Shown piece by piece: positions 99 through 48,523 of a stretch of DNA of 48,523 nt; position 1 is the first letter of the stretch, and each line of letters opens with the position of its first letter. The stretch is from NCBI GenBank assembly GCA_947452635.1, contig CANGEE010000003.1:1-48523 (forward strand), read 5' to 3'. The DNA comes from Comamonadaceae bacterium (GTDB lineage: Bacteria > Pseudomonadota > Gammaproteobacteria > Burkholderiales > Burkholderiaceae_C). A model generated the notes under the pieces. That model had not been told where the DNA came from and did not search any database. It saw only the letters and a program-made list of their open reading frames with translations. The position numbers and the translations under genes were made by a program.

Positions 99-935
99 AT
101 GCCGAAGCGAATCCAAACCGTCCAAACCAGCGCTTTACCCCTTATTCAATCCATTGAATTCGATCAACCTCTGAAATGGTTGGTTCTGGGTTGGAAAGAC
201 GTGGCGCGCCATCCTTTTTGGAGTTTGTTACATGGCGTGGTGATGACCGTCGCAGGCCTGTTGATCACCGCCTTGGCGCATGATCAATTTTGGCTTTTGG
301 CAGGGGCTATCTCAGGATTTTTAGTCGTGGCGCCGGTCTTGGCAACCAGCCTGTACGCCATGAGCCGTGCTGATGAGCGAGAAGAAAAAGTAGATGCCGC
401 CTTACTCATCTCGACATGGACCCGTTGGCAACGCCATGCCAAGCAAGACCCTGCTGGTTATTGGAGCTTGATTCAATTTGGCTCGTTATTGGCCCTGGCC
501 GCCACTGGATGGGTTTTAACCTCTTGCGCACTGATCACATTGGCGGCCTATCAACCCATCCACACCCCTATGGATTTCATACGGCATGTGGTCTTGGCCC
601 CTGAAGGGTATCTGTTCGAAATGTGGCTGACCGTTGGTGGCTTGATGGCAGCGCCCATCTTTGCGTCCAGCGTGGTGTCTATGCCTATGCTGTTAGATAA
701 ACGCGTCACAGTTTTACAAGCTGTCATGACCAGTTGGAAAGCCGTTATCGCGCATCCCGCCATCTTGGCTTTTTGGGCTTTCTTGATCATGGGTTTTGTC
801 ACCCTGGGTGTGATGTCACTTTTCCTGGGCTTGGTGTTTGTAGTCCCTATGCTGGGCCACGCCAGTTGGCATGCTTACAAAGACCTGGTGGATGCGCGTC
901 AATTGCCCGACCGTTGGTCTTCTGAGGCGTTGTGA
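99..935 (+). CDS. DUF2189 family integral membrane protein
   Basis: A 278-residue inner-membrane protein of the DUF2189 family, whose function is unknown. A short polar N-terminus is followed by the typical entry motif (PLKWLVLGWKDVARHPFW, about residues 24-41). Five or six hydrophobic segments follow, at roughly 42-62, 65-88, 125-150, 175-198 and 220-252. The ATG at 99 has no Shine-Dalgarno sequence and sits exactly where a class II FNR promoter would start transcription, so leaderless translation is possible. The stop overlaps the next start (TGATG at 933-937), so the two genes are probably translationally coupled. In other proteobacteria DUF2189 genes are often found near respiratory genes, which would fit anaerobic control; that link is inference. 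Confidence 0.85.
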   Translation: MPKRIQTVQTSALPLIQSIEFDQPLKWLVLGWKDVARHPFWSLLHGVVMTVAGLLITALAHDQFWLLAGAISGFLVVAPVLATSLYAMSRADEREEKVDAALLISTWTRWQRHAKQDPAGYWSLIQFGSLLALAATGWVLTSCALITLAAYQPIHTPMDFIRHVVLAPEGYLFEMWLTVGGLMAAPIFASSVVSMPMLLDKRVTVLQAVMTSWKAVIAHPAILAFWAFLIMGFVTLGVMSLFLGLVFVVPMLGHASWHAYKDLVDARQLPDRWSSEAL

Positions 936-1144
936 TGTGGGGTTGGACTGAAACACAGATCGCAGGTTTTGGTTTGACCTTCGGCGTAGGCGCCTTTATG
1001 GCCTACATGCTGTTCATCATTGGCCATCTGGCATGGGAATCGAAAGCCGGAAAATTTGGCACTTTTGTTATTTTTTTAGGACTTGCTTTTGGCATGGTGG
1101 GTTTTATAGCCAAAGGCTTGATCCAATGGTTTTTAGAAAAATGA
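935..1144 (+). CDS. DUF2788 family small membrane protein
   Basis: A 69-residue protein with two hydrophobic helices (about residues 8-30 and 41-65) joined by a short polar loop containing AWESKAGKFGTF. This matches the DUF2788 family of small proteobacterial membrane proteins of unknown function. The start chosen is the ATG at 935; the GTG one codon earlier is less likely. The ATG overlaps the TGA of the DUF2189 gene, and a GAGG sits at 922-925 at suitable spacing. It is presumably co-transcribed from the FNR-type promoter and may act with the DUF2189 protein; only the arrangement supports that. Confidence 0.8.
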   Translation: MWGWTETQIAGFGLTFGVGAFMAYMLFIIGHLAWESKAGKFGTFVIFLGLAFGMVGFIAKGLIQWFLEK

Positions 1145-1406
1145 TCTGTATAAACTTGTGGATAGTTGGACTGAAAAAGACAGGTTATCCACAGACTTCG
1201 ATGCTTTTCAGAAGTTGTTCATAAAACAGGTACACCAGCGAAGCAGAGTCTTGCACATGCGCTCAAACGGCCTAAGTCCTTGATCGGTATGGACTTACAA
1301 CCCTTATCCACAGAAGTGAGCGATGCTTATCTACTACTACTATCTTGATATAAAGAAATAAGAGAAAGAGAGAGGACAAGCTTGAGAGGTAAAATGAGGT
1401 CCTTTC
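1145..1406. other. Origin-like block: DnaA boxes, TAC-triplet array and AT-rich stretch upstream of minC
   Basis: This 262-base stretch has no gene. It holds two perfect DnaA boxes TTATCCACA (1185-1193 and 1304-1312) and an inverted box with one mismatch (TGTGGATAG, 1157-1165). A weaker box-like TTATCTACT is at 1327-1335. Right after it come repeated TAC triplets (TACTACTACTAT, 1332-1343) and an AT-rich then purine-rich run (about 1341-1377). The order DnaA box, short spacer, TAC triplets, AT-rich DNA matches the known layout of the basal unwinding region of bacterial origins (DnaA box plus DnaA-trio). A chromosomal origin, a secondary or relic origin, or DnaA control of minCDE are all possible. 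No dnaA, dnaN or parAB lies in the window. Confidence 0.6.
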
Positions 1407-2204
1407 ATGCTCACTGGATTCACGTTGGCAGCCTCCGCATCAAGCACTACGATCTGTTACGAAATCAAAAGCGCTGACTTGGCATTGGTGGCGCTTTTAT
1501 TGAAAACAGCGCAATTGGATACGTTGGCCAGTGATTTGAAAATGCAATTGGCTGACACCCCTGATTTTTTTGAGCAAGAACCGGTGGTCATCGATTTGGG
1601 CGGATTGCCTGATGCCGAAAAAGTGCTGGCGATTGATTTTGCAAAGTTGATTCATCTGCTGCGTTCGCATGGCATGGTGCCAATTGCCTTGCGTTCAGGT
1701 TCAGCCGAACACATGCAAGCAGGCAAATCGGCGGGATTGATGGACGCCACTTTTGCGCGTATTTTAAAAACACCCGCCGCCACACCTGTGCCCGTTGCCA
1801 AACCAGCACCTGTGAAAGCAATGCCGGTGGCTCCACCACCAGAGCCCGTGAACCATTTGGGCGCTTTGGTGATCGACAAGCCTTTGCGTTCAGGTCAGCA
1901 AATTTATGCCAAGGGGCGCGATTTGGTGATCTTGGCCATGGTCAATCCTGGTGCTGAAGTGATTGCCGATGGCAGTATTCACGTCTATTCGACACTGCGC
2001 GGCAAGGCCATTGCGGGGGCTAAAGGCAACAGCCAGGCCATGATTTTTGCCCAATGCATGGAGCCGGAGCTGATCTCGATTGCAGGCGTGTACCGCACCA
2101 GTGAAAATGCCTTGCCTGCTGAAATCAGGGGGCAAGCGGCACAAGTCAGTCTCAAGCATACGCCCGATGGTGAAAAATTAGTCATTCAAGCCCTCAGGTC
2201 TTGA
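1407..2204 (+). CDS. minC: Septum site-determining protein MinC
   Basis: Inhibitor of FtsZ polymerisation, recruited to the polar membrane by MinD. It is 265 residues, within the usual range. The N-terminal FtsZ-inhibiting domain covers about residues 15-120. A Pro/Ala-rich linker follows (about 122-152, including PVAKPAPVKAMPVAPPPEP). The C-terminal beta-helix domain, which binds MinD and dimerises, contains the family pattern GQQIYAKGRDLVILAMVNPG, then GSIHVYSTLRGKAIAG. The ATG at 1407 is preceded by a GAGG about 8 bases upstream. It is the first gene of minCDE. The upstream region is the origin-like block, so its promoter may lie within DnaA-bound DNA. Confidence 0.95.
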   Translation: MLTGFTLAASASSTTICYEIKSADLALVALLLKTAQLDTLASDLKMQLADTPDFFEQEPVVIDLGGLPDAEKVLAIDFAKLIHLLRSHGMVPIALRSGSAEHMQAGKSAGLMDATFARILKTPAATPVPVAKPAPVKAMPVAPPPEPVNHLGALVIDKPLRSGQQIYAKGRDLVILAMVNPGAEVIADGSIHVYSTLRGKAIAGAKGNSQAMIFAQCMEPELISIAGVYRTSENALPAEIRGQAAQVSLKHTPDGEKLVIQALRS

Positions 2205-2255: not shown

Positions 2256-3071
2256 ATGGCAAAAATCGTTGTTGTGACTTCCGGCAAAGGTGGCGTCGGT
2301 AAAACGACCACCAGCGCCAGTTTCGCCACAGGCCTGGCCCTGCGCGGGCTGAAGACTGTGGTGATTGACTTTGATGTGGGTCTGCGCAACTTGGACTTGA
2401 TCATGGGTTGCGAGCGCCGCGTCGTGTATGACTTCATCAATGTGATTCAAGGTGAAGCCAACCTGAACCAAGCCTTGATCAAAGACAAACAATGTGACAA
2501 CCTGTTCGTCTTGGCCGCATCGCAAACACGTGACAAAGACGCTTTGAGCCAGGAGGGCGTAGAGAAGGTTTTGAACGATTTGGCGGGGATGGGCTTTGAC
2601 TACATCGTTTGCGACTCGCCAGCGGGCATTGAGACGGGTGCATTGATGGCCATGCACTTTGCCGACGAAGCGTTGATCGTCACCAATCCTGAAGTGTCCT
2701 CGGTGCGTGATTCAGACCGCATTTTGGGCATGCTCGGCAGCAAAACCAAACGCGCGATTGAAGGCAATGATCCGATCAAAGAGCATTTGCTGATCACCCG
2801 CTACAACCCCAACCGGGTTGAAGACGGTCAAATGCTGTCCTTGCAAGACATTCAGGACATTTTGCGTGTGCCCTTGATCGGTGTGATTCCTGAAAGTGAA
2901 AACGTGTTGCAAGCCTCCAACCAGGGTACGCCAGCGATTCACATGAATGGCTCGGAAGTTTCGGAAGCGTACAAGGATGTGATTGACCGCTTTTTGGGCG
3001 AAGACAAGCCCTTGCGTTTTGTGGATGTTGAAAAAGCAGGCTTTTTCAAGCGCCTTTTTGGAGGGAAATAA
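2256..3071 (+). CDS. minD: Septum site-determining ATPase MinD
   Basis: Membrane-cycling ParA/MinD-type ATPase that carries MinC to the membrane and oscillates under MinE. It has 271 residues, the standard length. The deviant Walker A motif KGGVGKTT is at residues 11-18, including the signature lysine at 11. Switch regions follow (IDFDVGLRNLDL near 40; DYIVCDSPAGIE near 115). The extreme C-terminus is the amphipathic membrane-targeting helix (KAGFFKRLFGGK). It lies 51 bases after minC and 3 bases before minE, so the three genes form one operon. Nothing unusual is seen. Confidence 0.97.
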   Translation: MAKIVVVTSGKGGVGKTTTSASFATGLALRGLKTVVIDFDVGLRNLDLIMGCERRVVYDFINVIQGEANLNQALIKDKQCDNLFVLAASQTRDKDALSQEGVEKVLNDLAGMGFDYIVCDSPAGIETGALMAMHFADEALIVTNPEVSSVRDSDRILGMLGSKTKRAIEGNDPIKEHLLITRYNPNRVEDGQMLSLQDIQDILRVPLIGVIPESENVLQASNQGTPAIHMNGSEVSEAYKDVIDRFLGEDKPLRFVDVEKAGFFKRLFGGK

Positions 3072-3074
3072 GCC

Positions 3075-3335
3075 ATGTCCTTCCTTTCATTCCTGCTTGG
3101 GGAAAAGAAAAAAACAGCCAGTGTGGCGAAAGAACGCCTGCAAATCATCCTGGCGCATGAGCGCAGTGGACGCAACGCCGCCGAACCGGATTATTTGCCC
3201 GCTTTGCAACGCGAATTGGTGGCTGTGATCAGCAAGTACATCAAAATCAATCCCGACGACATCAAGGTCAACTTGGAACGCCAGGACAATTTGGAAGTAC
3301 TCGAAGTGAAAATCGAGTTGCCAGACGCGCGGTAA
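3075..3335 (+). CDS. minE: Cell division topological specificity factor MinE
   Basis: An 86-residue protein that stimulates the MinD ATPase and restricts MinCD inhibition to the poles. The N-terminus (MSFLSFLLG) is the membrane-binding amphipathic segment. It is followed by the MinD-binding, anti-MinCD region ([15 protein letters not shown], about residues 19-33). The C-terminal beta-rich topological specificity domain follows ([18 protein letters not shown]). The start is 3 bases after the minD stop, with GGAGGG at 3060-3065. It is the last gene of the operon and is followed by a strong terminator. Confidence 0.96.
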
Positions 3336-3393: not shown

Positions 3394-6300
3394 TCAAGCG
3401 ACGAACTGGGCCATCAAGGCTTTCCACTGCGTGCGCGCGGCCTTCAGGTTGCGTTCTTTGACGTGGCCAAAGCCTTTGATTTGTTCAGGAATGCGCGCCA
3501 CATCCACTGCCACGCGGTGATTGTCGGCATGGAGTTGACTCAAAATCACCGACAAACTGCTTTGGTACTCGCCAATCAAAGCCCGCTCGGTGCGCCGCTC
3601 TTCAGTCCGCCCAAATACATCAAGTGGCGTGCCGCGCAAAAACTTCAGGCGCGACAAGACTTTGAAGCCAGTCAGCATCGCGGGCCCAAACTTTTTCTTC
3701 ACCAACTCGCCTTTGTCATTGGTCTCAGATGTGAGAGGCGGTGCCAAGTGGTAATGGAGTTTGAAGTCGCCTTCAAACAGCCCTGTGACCCGAGACAAGA
3801 ACGCGGTGTCGGTGTGCAAACGCGCCACCTCGTACTCGTCCTTATAGGCCATCAGTTTGAACAGGTAACGCGCCACGGTTTCGGTCAACACCGTTTTGCC
3901 CAGGGCCGATTCGGCTTGCTGCACCTTGCCAACAAAGTGCAAATAGCTTTGCGCATAGGCCGCGTTTTGATAGTCTGTCAAATAGGCCACGCGCCGCTCA
4001 ATCAAAGTGTCCAAGGTCTCGCGCTTCTTGAATTCAATCACCTGAGAAGGCGCCAAGACGCGCTGCACTGCCGCCGCGTCGTGGGCCGCGTGACGGCCCC
4101 ATTCGAAAGCGGTTTGGTTGTTTTGCACCTGCACACCGTTGAGTTCCATGGCGCGCAAGATGCTTTCACGCGTCAACGGAATCCAACCCTTTTGCCAAGC
4201 GTAGCCCAGGATCATGGGGTTCACATAAATCGTGTCGCCCATCAGTTGATTGGCCATGGTATCGGCATCGAATGCGCCCACACCCTCTACGCCCACCGCT
4301 TGGGTGATTTCAGCCAGACATTGCTCGGCCGGGTTTTCCCAATTGCCGTTTTTCACAAAAGCCGCTGTCGGCGTGCCATGCGAATTCAAGGCCACACGGG
4401 TGCGGCCTTGGCGCATGCGCAATGCCGTTTCTTTGCTGGCCGTGACGATGGGGTCACAGCCGATGATCACATCGGCGGCGGCCATGCTGACACGGGTGGT
4501 GCGAATCTCGTCTTGATGGTTGGCGATCAGCACATGGCTCCAGGTGGCACCGCCTTTTTGTGCCAAGCCGGCTGCGTCTTGGGTGATGATGCCTTTGCCA
4601 TCAATGTGACCGGCCATGCCCAACAACTGACCAATCGTGATCACGCCGGTGCCGCCCACGCCCGCCACCACCAGGCCATAAGCCTGGGTGAGTGCGGGCA
4701 GGATAGGTTCTGGCAAGGCGCCCAAGGCGGCGGGTGATGCCGCTTGGGTCTTGGCTTTTTTCTTCAGCTGACCACCTTCCACCGTGACAAAGCTGGGGCA
4801 AAAACCTTTGAGGCAACTGGTGTCTTTGTTGCACGTGCTTTGGTTGATGGTGCGCTTGCGGCCGAACTCGGTTTCCAGCGGCTCGACCGACAAACAATTG
4901 GACTGCACGCCGCAGTCACCGCAGCCTTCGCACACCAACTCGTTGATCACCACCCGAACCGCCGGGTCGACCATGGTGCCGCGCTTGCGGCGGCGGCGTT
5001 TTTCGGTGGCGCAGGTCTGGTCGTAAATGATGACGGTGCAACCCTTGATCTCGCGCATTTCGCGCTGAATGCGGTCGAGCTCGTCGCGGTGGTGCACCGT
5101 CACACCTTCAGCCAAGGCCACGCCGTCGTACTTTTCCGGCTCGTCGGTCACCACGTCAATGCGCTGCGCCCCTTCGGCGCGCATGCTTTGCGCAATCTGC
5201 ACCACGCTGTGGCCCTCAGGGCGTTCACCCACTTGCTGGCCACCGGTCATGGCGACCGCATCGTTGTAGAGAATTTTGTAGGTGATGTTCACGCCCGCCG
5301 CAATGCTTTGGCGAATCGCCAGCATGCCGCTGTGAAAGTAGGTGCCGTCGCCCACATTGGCAAACATGTGCTGGTCGTGGCTGAAGGGCTGTTGCCCGAC
5401 CCAAGGCACGCCCTCGCCACCCATTTGCGTGAAGCCCACGGTGCTGCGGTCCATCCACACGCTCATGAAGTGGCAGCCGATACCGGCCATGGCGCGCGAA
5501 CCTTCGGGTACGCGGGTCGAGGTGTTGTGTGGACAGCCCGAGCAAAACCAGGGTGTGCGCTCGCCAATCGCGTTCACATTCAAAACCTGCAGCGAGCGCT
5601 CTTTGGCTTCCAAAATCGCCAATTGCGCGTCGATGCGCGCAGTGGTGTCGGCGTCCAAGCCGAGCTTTTTGAGGCGCTTGGCCAAGGCCTTGGCAATCAA
5701 GGCCGGCGTTAAATCGGCGTTGGCGCGCAGCAGGGTGCGGCTGTGCGGGTTGGACACCGACCATTCGCCACCGGTGGTTTCGCCCTCTTCTTCGTCGAAC
5801 TTGCCCAGCACTTTGGGGCGCACATCGTCGCGCCAGTTGTACAGCTCTTCTTTGATTTGGTATTCGATCAGTTGGCGCTTTTCTTCGACCACCAAGATCT
5901 CTTGCAGGCCCGTGGCAAATTCTCGGGTGGAATGCGACTCCAGCGGCCAGACCACGCCCACTTTGTGCACCCGAATGCCCAGGCGTTGGCAGGTGGCGTC
6001 GTCCAATCCCAAGTCGAGCAAGGCTTGGCGGGTGTCGTTGTAAGCCTTGCCGCTGGCGATGATGCCAAAGCGGTCATGGGGGCCTTGCACCACGTTGTGG
6101 TTGAGTTTGTTGGCACGGATGTAGGAGAGTGCGGCATACCATTTGTAGTCAAACAAGCGCGCTTCCTGGTCCAGCGCGGGGTCGGGCCAGCGAATATGAA
6201 TGCCACCCGCAGGCATCTCAAACTCGGGCAAGATGATCTTCACGCGTTCAGGGTCGATCTCGGCGGTGGCGCTGGACTCGACGATTTCTTGGATGGTCTT

Positions 6301-44957: not shown

Positions 44958-45031
44958 CCGCTTACAAATCAGTAGCAAAGTCTTTTTCAAATTGAGGTTT
45001 TGTCCCAATGCTGTCCCACTCAGGAGCAGAT

Positions 45032-45402
45032 ATGGCATCTTTCAGACAACATGGCAATAGCTGGCAAGCTCGGATGCGCTAACAAGCCCACCCAGAAATT
45101 ACCAAGAGCTTACCTTCAAGGCATGATGATGAGAAGCGGGCGCGATCAGATGAAACCGACACAGACAAAGTTCAATTTATCAGGGTCTCTGAGACACAGC
45201 GCAGCACCTTGGGTGATTTGATTTCAAGGTATTTGGCGAAGGTCACCCCGACCATGAAGGGCGCAACGGCAGACACCATAAGGCTCAAAGCCATCATGCG
45301 CAGGTCCATTGCAGGTGGAGTATGGTGAAAACTTAAGGGCATCCAAATTCGCAGATTATCGGACATTGAACTACGCGTCGCGTGGGGCTTTAGAAGTAAA
45401 CG
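45032..45402 (+). pseudogene. Remnant of a phage-type tyrosine integrase (N-terminal part only)
   Basis: AGGAG at 45022-45026 precedes an ATG that opens MASFRQHGNSWQARMR, the usual start of a Burkholderiales phage-type integrase. It is broken by TAA at 45080-45082. The same frame continues with HPEITKSLPSR, TLGDLISRYLAKVTPTMKG and DTIRLKAIMRRSIAGG, then stops at 45326-45328. In another frame the family core-binding pattern resumes (LRASKFADYRTL...ASRGALEV, about 45327-45402). A nonsense mutation, a frameshift and loss of the whole catalytic domain make it inactive. No tRNA or clear attachment repeat was seen beside it. Confidence 0.8.
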
Positions 45403-45452
45403 GTACCCAAACTAACGACAAAATGTCACGAAACATCAACGTTACTTTATAC

Positions 45453-47591
45453 CTAGAAACCGTTTCTAATTTGGCTGTAAACGTCCAAACCATCTGCTGT
45501 GCGACTGCGAACCTGAAACAGCCCAAGCCCTGATGTGCCCACTACCCAATTTGAGCGCAGCCCACAGCTATTTGCGCTGGTGCCCGTGCATGGAACATCC
45601 ACGCTGTTTGACGTGTAAGGTACGTTAACTGAGTTCGTCCCTCCGTTGACACCCGTTCCCCAATAAATAGCAGTTGACCAAGGATGAACATTCCCAGTGG
45701 ATATGCCAAAATTGATAGCAGCTGAAGTGGCACCAACAAAAGTCAGAAGATTGTTTTGAGTCGCTGTTGAAAAGGTGGGGTAGTAAGCAAAGCCTTGAGT
45801 TTCCGCAGGTGTTAAGGGCCTTGTAGCAAGCCGGTTTACATAAGTCATCGAACTGCCGTCAGACAAAATGATTTCAAATGTGTAAGGCTCTCCTTCCCCA
45901 ATGCTGGCGATATCAGAATCGCTCAAATAGTTGCCAACGGAAGTTGACAGGCCAGACATGGTTCCTGTGTTGTTTCCTGAGCCAATCAAATTGCCGTCGT
46001 TGCCGAGCCCTTTGAGATAACGCGGATTATTTGTAGTAAGTGTCGTGTAACTGTTCGAGTAATTTATTGCCAGTACAAATACACCTGCGCAAGAATAAGT
46101 TGTGTTGACGGTTGTCCAATCAGTTCCCGTTTTTGAAATTGCAGCAGCAGAAGTGATCGGCAGGTAAGAGCCGCACGAACCATTGAACTTTTGTGCGACG
46201 TAAGCCCCACCAGCTGGCAAACCCTTGCCCGTAATCTTTGCAACTACTGGTTTGCGATTTGTCGCGTCGGTCGATGAGATGAAATTTCCAACATAAAGGT
46301 TGATACCGGTCTCGTAGCGGTAATCGCCAGTGACTTGATTCACAATCTTTTGGACCACGGGTATCGCGTAGCTCTGGAAGTCACGCTGGTCGCCTATAAA
46401 TCTAAAGCCTTTATCTTGGCCGGACGCCAGATTGTCAAATCTTTTTACCACCATGAACGGTGAGCGAACCATGTCACCTAATTGGTCGACTGTACCATCC
46501 GCGAAAAGTATCGGAAACTTGACTGCCCACGTTGTGCCTTGCGAGTCAAGAGGGCGAATGATTCTGGGCGTCAGAAATGTAGCCCCATCGTATTTCGATT
46601 GAGTCAACATGTAACCGAAGATTCCAGCCCAGTACCAACTGGTATTGTTTGGCGTACTGTAATTTTGACTGTTCCACTTAAAGCTTGAATGCTTGAATGA
46701 ATTGGCTTGCGTCAGGTCACTTGTGACCACAAACTTAGCATCAGCACAGTCTGCCGATGGTGATTGTGGCGTTCCCCGGGTGGAGGATGAGGTTTGCTTG
46801 AAGCACTTATCCAACCTGCTTCTTAAAACTTCGAGGTCGCCAATCGTTAGGGTTGTTTTATCGGTAGGCGTGATCAAGCTCGCAGCAGAGTTCGCGTTTG
46901 GCAAAGCACCCGAGGCTATAACGAGGCTGGTGTATGGTGCTGTCGCCGTGCTATTGGCTGCAAGGTCGTTGCCAACCTTACCCGCACTCGTGCCCAGTAT
47001 GACCTGTCCGCTTGGCTGGACAGTGGCTGATACGTTGTCTAGCAACTTGTCCATCGCCCCTGAAAATGTGCTGCTGATTAAAGAGCCAGAAACCCCCATC
47101 GCTGACATGACTCCAGAAAGCGCAGAGCGATACGCTTGATCGGCCAGTTCAATTGATGCTGAATTGAAATTTCTTTGGCTTGAAGTGTTTGTACTCAAAT
47201 CCAGCGGGTTTCCGGAATTTGATAGAGAAGCTGCTATTGCGTTGGTTAGTTGGGTCACATTGGCTTGACCAGCAACTGATGCAACGCTGGTTAAACTTAT
47301 CCCTGTATCTCCACTCAAGCCATCTGCCCTGATGACGAAGGGTGGTGTAAATTTGGTTGAATCAAAGCTAAGTGAATATTTACCACTTGCGTCAGTGGTT
47401 GTCGTGCCAATTAATTGGCCAAGCGCATCGCGCACTGTGACAGCTGCGTTTTCAATCGGCGCGCCTGTTGCGACTGTTCCACCAAGAGAAGAGGTTGTAG
47501 AGCTACTTTCAATTTCGCTCAGGCTTCCGTTCCCGCTTCCACAGCCAACAATAAATAAGCAAACGATAATTGAAAGAGTTAGCAGTCGCAT
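45453..47591 (-). CDS. Large AT-rich secreted lipoprotein with a carboxypeptidase-regulatory-like domain
   Basis: 712 residues. A lipoprotein signal (LLTLSIIVCLFIVGC) gives the N-terminal Cys, followed by a Ser/Thr/Gly-rich linker. A transthyretin-like/carboxypeptidase regulatory domain follows (about 35-110; GAPIENAAVTVRDALGQLIG, TTTDASGKYSLSFD). The rest is low-complexity, Asn/Ser/Thr-rich beta-type sequence without a recognised catalytic motif. Its base composition is clearly more AT-rich than its neighbours. It has its own strong sigma-70 promoter and AAGGG before the ATG. With the integrase remnant next to it, recent acquisition is likely. A surface or adhesion role is a guess only. Confidence 0.75.
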   Translation of the reverse strand: MRLLTLSIIVCLFIVGCGSGNGSLSEIESSSTTSSLGGTVATGAPIENAAVTVRDALGQLIGTTTTDASGKYSLSFDSTKFTPPFVIRADGLSGDTGISLTSVASVAGQANVTQLTNAIAASLSNSGNPLDLSTNTSSQRNFNSASIELADQAYRSALSGVMSAMGVSGSLISSTFSGAMDKLLDNVSATVQPSGQVILGTSAGKVGNDLAANSTATAPYTSLVIASGALPNANSAASLITPTDKTTLTIGDLEVLRSRLDKCFKQTSSSTRGTPQSPSADCADAKFVVTSDLTQANSFKHSSFKWNSQNYSTPNNTSWYWAGIFGYMLTQSKYDGATFLTPRIIRPLDSQGTTWAVKFPILFADGTVDQLGDMVRSPFMVVKRFDNLASGQDKGFRFIGDQRDFQSYAIPVVQKIVNQVTGDYRYETGINLYVGNFISSTDATNRKPVVAKITGKGLPAGGAYVAQKFNGSCGSYLPITSAAAISKTGTDWTTVNTTYSCAGVFVLAINYSNSYTTLTTNNPRYLKGLGNDGNLIGSGNNTGTMSGLSTSVGNYLSDSDIASIGEGEPYTFEIILSDGSSMTYVNRLATRPLTPAETQGFAYYPTFSTATQNNLLTFVGATSAAINFGISTGNVHPWSTAIYWGTGVNGGTNSVNVPYTSNSVDVPCTGTSANSCGLRSNWVVGTSGLGLFQVRSRTADGLDVYSQIRNGF

Positions 47592-47663
47592 GATTGTTGC
47601 CCTTATTTAATATTCATTTAGGCTAGCTCTTTCAAAAATAGCCCCAATTTTGATAACGGTTTT

Positions 47664-47692
47664 ATACTACACTTAAATTTAATAAGAATCAA
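47664..47692 (-). promoter_or_regulatory. Strong sigma-70 promoter of the AT-rich lipoprotein gene
   Basis: On the minus strand TTGATT (47692-47687) and TAGTAT (47669-47664) are separated by exactly 17 bases. Transcription would start near 47657, giving a leader of about 66 bases. It is the best sigma-70-like promoter noticed in the window. Confidence 0.7.
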
Positions 47693-47743
47693 TTCAGCGA
47701 TTGCGATCCACATTCAAACTGAGCCACAAATGAAGCCCGAGCT

Positions 47744-47772
47744 CACAGTTGCATTTGTGCAAATGCTCTGTG
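47744..47772. repeat. Imperfect 29-base palindrome upstream of the lipoprotein promoter
   Basis: CACAG-TT-GCATTTG-TG-CAAATGC-T-CTGTG, with a perfect 7-bp core. It is centred about 100 bases upstream of the predicted lipoprotein start site. It could be an operator or the end hairpin of the upstream minus-strand gene; no T-run supports a terminator. The rest of the 47592-47873 gap is AT-rich with no gene seen. Confidence 0.45.
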
Positions 47773-47873
47773 TTATTGGGGGTGCATCAAGTAATTCTTG
47801 TTTTAAATGGTGAGGTTTTTGGTGTCAGGGACAACTTAGTAGTCGCAGGCTTAATGGCCAAGACCCTGAGCCC

Positions 47874-48523
47874 TTAGCGCGACAAAGCCGTCAAGTCATA
47901 GACCATCGTCAAGCCCCATGACGTGGCTTGAAAACTGCCGCGGTGAGCAGCGATGCGTCCCGCCGTCGCCATGACCGACCATTGTGGCGAAAGCCTGTAA
48001 CCCAGCCCCATGTCGTATTGTCCCACCAGCCCCCCACCCGTGGCCAAGCCACCCCCCCCACCGGCACCCGCCAGCGCTTGAGCCTCGGCAAACCAGGCGC
48101 CCACCAAAGACTGGTGCACACCCACGCCCAGCAGCCCGGACATGTAGGCACCCGCCTGCCCTTTGTAAGCCGCCAGGCCCTGCCCGGTGACGAACCATTG
48201 CGTGGAGGCGTCCGCCGGGCTGACAAAGTAATCCCATTGAGCACCCAAGAGGCTGACTTGCATGTCAGGATAGCTGTTGCGCCAAGCTGGGCGATCGCCC
48301 TTGTAGGTTTGCTGCACCAAACGCAGACGCAGGTGGTGCGGGTCCCAGCCCGCCAAATCGCCAATCGGTACAGTTTGCGCGCCGACATCAGGTGCGGAGA
48401 AATGATGCACCCACTTGAGTCCCAAACTGCTGCCCCTGAACGGGCCAGAAAATCCACCCTCTTGGCCCCAGGTTAAGGCCAGCGCATCATGCCGTGAGAG
48501 TTGCTGCTGCAACGACACGCCCG
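47874..48523 (-). CDS. C-terminal part of a putative outer-membrane beta-barrel protein (partial)
   Basis: The open frame runs off the window's right edge, so the start is not seen; at least 215 residues are present. The sequence alternates short hydrophobic strands with polar turns (WDYFVSPADASTQWFVTGQG, VGQYDMGLGYRLSPQWSVMA). It ends in a strand-like WGLTMVYDLTALSR, suggesting a barrel, though the last residue is not the usual Phe. A Gly-rich stretch (AGAGGGGGLATGGG) lies in the middle. No specific family is recognised; a porin-like or enzyme-type barrel is possible. Composition is normal for the genome, so the foreign segment probably ends before it. Confidence 0.6.
   Translation of the reverse strand, partial: GVSLQQQLSRHDALALTWGQEGGFSGPFRGSSLGLKWVHHFSAPDVGAQTVPIGDLAGWDPHHLRLRLVQQTYKGDRPAWRNSYPDMQVSLLGAQWDYFVSPADASTQWFVTGQGLAAYKGQAGAYMSGLLGVGVHQSLVGAWFAEAQALAGAGGGGGLATGGGLVGQYDMGLGYRLSPQWSVMATAGRIAAHRGSFQATSWGLTMVYDLTALSR

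Follow-up and report, generated by a model that had tools for sequence, protein, structure and literature searches.

The block at positions 1145 to 1375 of the analysed stretch (48,523 nucleotides, hereafter the window) is, with a probability of about 0.92, the chromosomal origin of replication (oriC) of a freshwater Limnohabitans-like lineage, relocated from dnaA to the space before minCDE, the genes that set the site of cell division. We favour this reading because the block is homologous to the oriC module of the family, the module is absent from dnaA and present in a single copy in four genomes of the same genus, and the GC skew switches at the block in three of three same-genus genomes. 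Among the options raised in a preliminary description of this DNA, the true origin is therefore the one supported here. Judged by its sequence, the block has the look of a conserved and functional oriC in an unusual place. Its features and those of the surrounding genes are as follows.

99 to 935, plus strand: gene of a DUF2189 membrane protein, the upstream neighbour (Pfam PF09955, E 1.3e-26), also beside the block in g1 and in the g16 genome G230
935 to 1144, plus strand: gene of a DUF2788 small protein (Pfam PF10981, E 1.3e-22), whose stop codon abuts the origin block
1145 to 1375, plus strand: putative oriC module with DnaA-box cluster, DnaA-trios and AT-rich region (match to the dnaA-dnaN-gap profile; skew switch at its orthologues)
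1145 to 1153, minus strand: DnaA box with one mismatch, TTATACAGA (box scan)
1157 to 1165, minus strand: DnaA box with one mismatch, CTATCCACA, of which several relatives carry the perfect version (box scan, alignment of relatives)
1185 to 1193, plus strand: perfect DnaA box TTATCCACA, without variation among 12 aligned clade members
1216 to 1224, minus strand: DnaA box with one mismatch, TTATGAACA, overlapping the conserved element AAGTTGTTCA
1304 to 1312, plus strand: perfect DnaA box TTATCCACA, proximal to the trios, starting 119 bp past the start of the 1185 box
1331 to 1342, plus strand: four CTA triplets, corresponding to 3'-GAT-5' DnaA-trios on the opposite strand (sequence; motif as defined in the available part of PMC8287927)
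1343 to 1375, no strand: AT-rich stretch 3' of the trios, predicted from its AT content to be the first DNA unwound
1407 to 2204, plus strand: minC (Pfam MinC_N, MinC_C)
2256 to 3071, plus strand: minD (CbiA/ParA/MinD-type ATPase families; between minC and minE)
3075 to 3335, plus strand: minE (Pfam MinE, E 8.2e-25)

The block fills most of the gap between the DUF2788 gene and minC, with the first DnaA box beginning immediately past the DUF2788 stop codon, and the coordinates given for it in the preliminary description proved correct. The same description had listed two perfect boxes and one near-perfect box; both perfect boxes were recovered, accompanied by three single-mismatch boxes instead of one, giving five boxes within 168 bp. 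Boxes with up to one mismatch show no excess over chance across the whole window (18 found versus 19.1 expected), while their clustering clearly exceeds chance, with five in 170 bp compared with a maximum of three across 300 dinucleotide shuffles of the window. The arrangement of a box, an 18-bp spacer and four CTA triplets occurs once in the window, and the box-spacer-trio motif was reached in none of 100 shuffles, even with up to three mismatches allowed. A box-like element merging into the triplets was likewise found as described: TTATCTACT (1327-1335, two mismatches) overlaps the first two CTA triplets and leaves two. The AT-rich DNA reported after the triplets is also present beside the boxes, base composition reaching 71% AT at 1345-1375 versus 40.5% window-wide. 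In the base composition of the window at large, GC content is about 48% at 45000-48000 versus about 60% over most of its length, and a similarly low value, near 50%, is seen in the first 3 kb.

This order of elements resembles the basal unwinding system (BUS) of Bacillus subtilis, which consists of a DnaA box and DnaA-trios and is defined, in the available part of PMC8287927, by three or more trios at a distance of 0-16 bp from a DnaA box. Box, spacer and 3'-GAT-5' trios follow one another in the same order in the window. The block differs from the system described there in two respects: 18 bp separate its four perfect trios from the nearest good box, compared with the BUS search range of 0-16 bp, and the closer box is only the degenerate TTATCTACT.

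Comparison with other genera of the family revealed that the same module occupies their dnaA-dnaN gap. Alignment of 30 module copies gave a mean column identity of 64%, with the box pair, the box spacing of about 119 bp and the CTA triplets in register, and the family-alignable part of the block extends over about 1147-1361. The main module profile (216 positions) was built from an alignment including the window, which makes its match to the window circular evidence, and the test was therefore repeated with clade-free profiles. A gap-only profile of six copies (G186, G261, G082, G014, G080 and G260, clade excluded) matched the window over 1149-1360 with 75 bits and E = 2.6e-22, hence over the whole length of the module, and found no second site in the window (next E 6.9). 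The likeness to the dnaA-linked oriC of other genera of the family and order comprises the box pair, the spacing of about 119 bp, the trios and the AT-rich end; the difference is that the block here precedes minCDE and that no module was found at dnaA. A shorter search pattern (box-N-TACTACT-N-CTA) matched 66 of 299 genomes and was dropped, as its reversed control matched many genomes too; at least one of its matches, L094, had no DnaA box within 500 bp, which helped to discard the count.

Unlike a dnaA-linked oriC, the block is not adjacent to dnaA, from which it is separated by 155-184 kb in three same-genus genomes. When searched with two profiles, built from the six gap copies and from all non-clade copies, the dnaA loci of the window's own genome and of G087, G189 and G264 gave no module match (best E only 1.7), an absence that speaks for the block as the origin. 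Each of the four same-genus genomes searched contains one module match, a count that rests on strict filters and may miss weak copies; for G264, the single match was obtained again in a second search.

The block is furthermore conserved in relatives. A MinC search limited to one genome per species retained 80 relatives out of 184, among them 13 Limnohabitans-clade loci (L002-L012, L022 and L032, labelled Limnohabitans sp., Comamonadaceae bacterium and, in one case, uncultured Burkholderiales), of which L004 and L022 start inside minC and are hence uninformative. All 11 testable clade relatives carry the block upstream of minC in the same orientation, with the boxes, their spacing and the triplets kept. 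No module was detected upstream of minC, within the flanking DNA scanned, in 19 more distant loci from Comamonas, Aquabacterium, Pelomonas, Burkholderia, Neisseriaceae and others (L013-L021, L023-L031 and L075; the module-profile scan left out L033-L074 and L076-L081). One of these, Pelomonas sp. BJYL3 (L023), carries four DnaA boxes on a single strand 280-635 bp upstream of its minC match, two of them perfect and two with one mismatch, but does not match the module profile there. A MinC_C match was absent in 13 of 69 genomes, 11 of which have a completeness of 90% or more and a contamination of 5% or less.

The own genome is a 222-contig draft with just 1.1 kb left of the block, where the skew is unreadable; because of this fragmentation, GC skew was tested in the three same-genus genomes G264, G087 and G189. 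In 20-kb stretches sampled around the block and dnaA, 21 of 23 were negative to the left of the block and 24 of 24 positive to its right, counts that leave out a 2.2-kb end piece (L172, -0.014) and the block-containing stretches of G264 (-0.032) and G087 (+0.023). Stretches lying wholly between the block and dnaA had the sign expected for a start at the block in 14 of 15 cases, the lone exception being found in G264 at 570 kb (+0.009). A skew step placed at the block outperformed a step at dnaA by 9.1 (G264), 11.5 (G087) and 5.6 (G189) log-likelihood units in 5-kb bins, in a test that takes adjacent bins as independent, and the best-fitting break lay at most 8 kb from the block in each genome. 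In none of the three does a skew change fit at dnaA; a skew minimum located only at a dnaA-linked origin was among the refuting conditions named in the preliminary description. Third-codon-position skew, although noisier, followed the same trend in G264 and G087 (negative in 14 of 19 cases to the left of the block, positive in 14 of 16 to its right).

Contigs of named relatives switched sign across the block in six of the seven computed, L009 being positive on both sides, while L002, L007, L010 and L012, with less than 2.8 kb left of the block, were left out of this comparison. As a control, G080, which carries the module in the dnaA gap, was positive in four of four stretches from the module onward and negative in four of four at the far contig end. 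The minC block was also favoured over dnaA in G257 and G230 (log-likelihood +4.7 and +4.2, respectively), with the best break 45 kb and 52 kb off the minC block and with skew near zero right of the block in G230. The skew test was clear in G294, and it was ambiguous or weak in G262 (p 0.07), G190 (p 0.03) and G114 (p 0.03, all by permutation), so that proof of relocation from these three genomes was set aside. Skew thus confirms a non-dnaA position of the module well in the window's genus and in G294, and less well elsewhere.

These data also bear on the second proposal of the preliminary description, a second or relic origin, according to which replication would start elsewhere, near dnaA, and the minC copy would be a leftover or a DnaA-titrating site. 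Extra copies of the module are real in the family, two or three being present in 18 of 40 genomes, and one perfect DnaA box is retained in front of dnaA in four same-genus genomes. However, the same-genus genomes hold one copy only and no module at dnaA, a skew step is better placed at the block than at dnaA in all three genomes tested, and trios and box spacing have been preserved, which would not be expected of a decaying relic. We therefore consider a relic or auxiliary origin very unlikely.

DnaA acts as a transcription factor at box clusters, and for this reason the block might be read as a DnaA-regulated minCDE promoter only and no origin, in keeping with its position 32-262 bp upstream of minC. 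Such a reading leaves the skew switch without explanation, is at odds with the module lying far from minC in many genera, and gains nothing from a simple promoter scan, which performed at chance (1 found versus 0.9 expected, that one inside minC). A role confined to the promoter thus appears extremely improbable, and we return to the block as a relocated oriC.

Across the family, the module profile matched 285 of 299 genomes, some of which had trained the profile. Positions were surveyed in 40 genomes, comprising 37 single-contig genomes together with G264, G114 and G132. The module was located at minC in 8, at dnaA in 13, at dnaA and near minC in one (G132, second copy 2.8 kb from minC), near minC in one (G152, within 5 kb) and elsewhere in 17; some circular distances to minC are overestimated (G079), which leaves the position classes unaffected. 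The dnaA class consists of 12 genomes assigned by script and of G254, placed there tentatively by hand: on the minus strand of its contig, the module is found close to the end and dnaA at the beginning, and in the related G070 the module occupies the dnaA gap. A single copy was found in seven of the eight minC-class genomes; the eighth, G121, has a second copy about 1.6 kb from a dnaA C-terminal domain. In an order-level search of 41 genomes, 11 besides the own genome matched, several of them weakly, and 29 had no match. As the module follows right after dnaA in seven of these 11, the dnaA-dnaN gap is probably its ancestral position.

The oriC module would accordingly have been situated, probably, in the dnaA-dnaN gap and have moved to the space before minCDE, perhaps via duplication followed by loss of the old copy. 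In the dnaA-class genome G272 and in G132, the copy at dnaA is accompanied by a further one at a distance of 25-29 kb (29 kb in G272), which suggests relocation through a two-copy intermediate. At the present site, DnaA-ATP is predicted to bind the box cluster and to be guided from the 1304 box onto the CTA/GAT trios at 1331-1342; the AT-rich DNA beyond would then be melted, and replication would depart both ways from the block.

Its place could, in addition to serving as oriC, couple initiation to minCDE expression, with DnaA occupancy or opening of the origin modulating minC transcription and minCDE being copied first. The preliminary description had likewise suggested a tie between septum placement and initiation. 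Seven genera (g1, g16, g45, g74, g121, g124 and g125) have the module immediately upstream of minC and on its strand. In the flanking DNA examined, the DUF2788 neighbour is common to g1 and g16 only, with no DUF2788 gene found outside these two within 0.4-1.3 kb upstream of the block, and the DUF2189 gene occurs in g1 and G230; several landings are thus possible, which could reflect selection. On the other hand, 13 of the 17 genomes with the module elsewhere have minC no more than about 110 kb from it, so that a chance landing nearby is plausible. A tree of DnaA and DnaN (64 genomes, 60 with DnaN) places g1 and g16 together at 68% bootstrap and g125 apart, and given its weak backbone the number of independent moves, and with it the independence of the landings, is uncertain. 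We therefore regard such a coupling as an unlikely, though conceivable, supplement to the oriC reading. Equally doubtful is the broader proposal that the family oriC is a compact module relocating repeatedly as a unit, often via a two-copy stage, and that it landed several times independently before minC because placement in the min promoter couples initiation to septum placement.

A chromosomal origin that is not beside dnaA is also known from Escherichia coli, where oriC lies between gidA and mioC; the present case differs in that min operon genes are the neighbours and in that several positions occur within one family, the number of moves being uncertain. Origin position is commonly assumed to vary little among close relatives. 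Within this one family, the module is found at dnaA, at minC or elsewhere in different genera, and single-copy genomes coexist with multi-copy ones. This offers a natural system for studying how an essential origin can change place while the cell stays viable, and whether regulation is affected when an origin lies in the promoter region of the division-site selector. Ori-Finder 2022 uses dnaA as its default indicator gene, and the origins of some genomes of the family may be misannotated when dnaA is taken as the marker. The origin of Acidovorax citrulli was predicted with Ori-Finder, according to the available part of PMC6595937. A full-text literature search, covering titles and the starts of abstracts, returned no origin beside min genes and no origin relocation in Comamonadaceae; DoriC tables and most subscription papers, outside its scope, may list the position.

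Several further arrangements of the module were observed. In g114 (G114) it is divergent from minC. In g45 (G044), the copy before minC is accompanied by a second copy after minD that faces the first; at this locus (L295, G044:C55:68000-74000), the facing copies at 798-1007 (plus strand) and 4879-5090 (minus strand) enclose minC and minD. Two copies that point the same way and are separated by about 470-790 bp, reminiscent of a bipartite origin, occur in G262, G085, G187, G194, G268, G294 and G190. Finally, at L095 (G150:C21), the CTA/TAC triplets following a DnaA box are expanded: from about position 453, an extended perfect repeat continues to the end of the approximately 78 bases examined.
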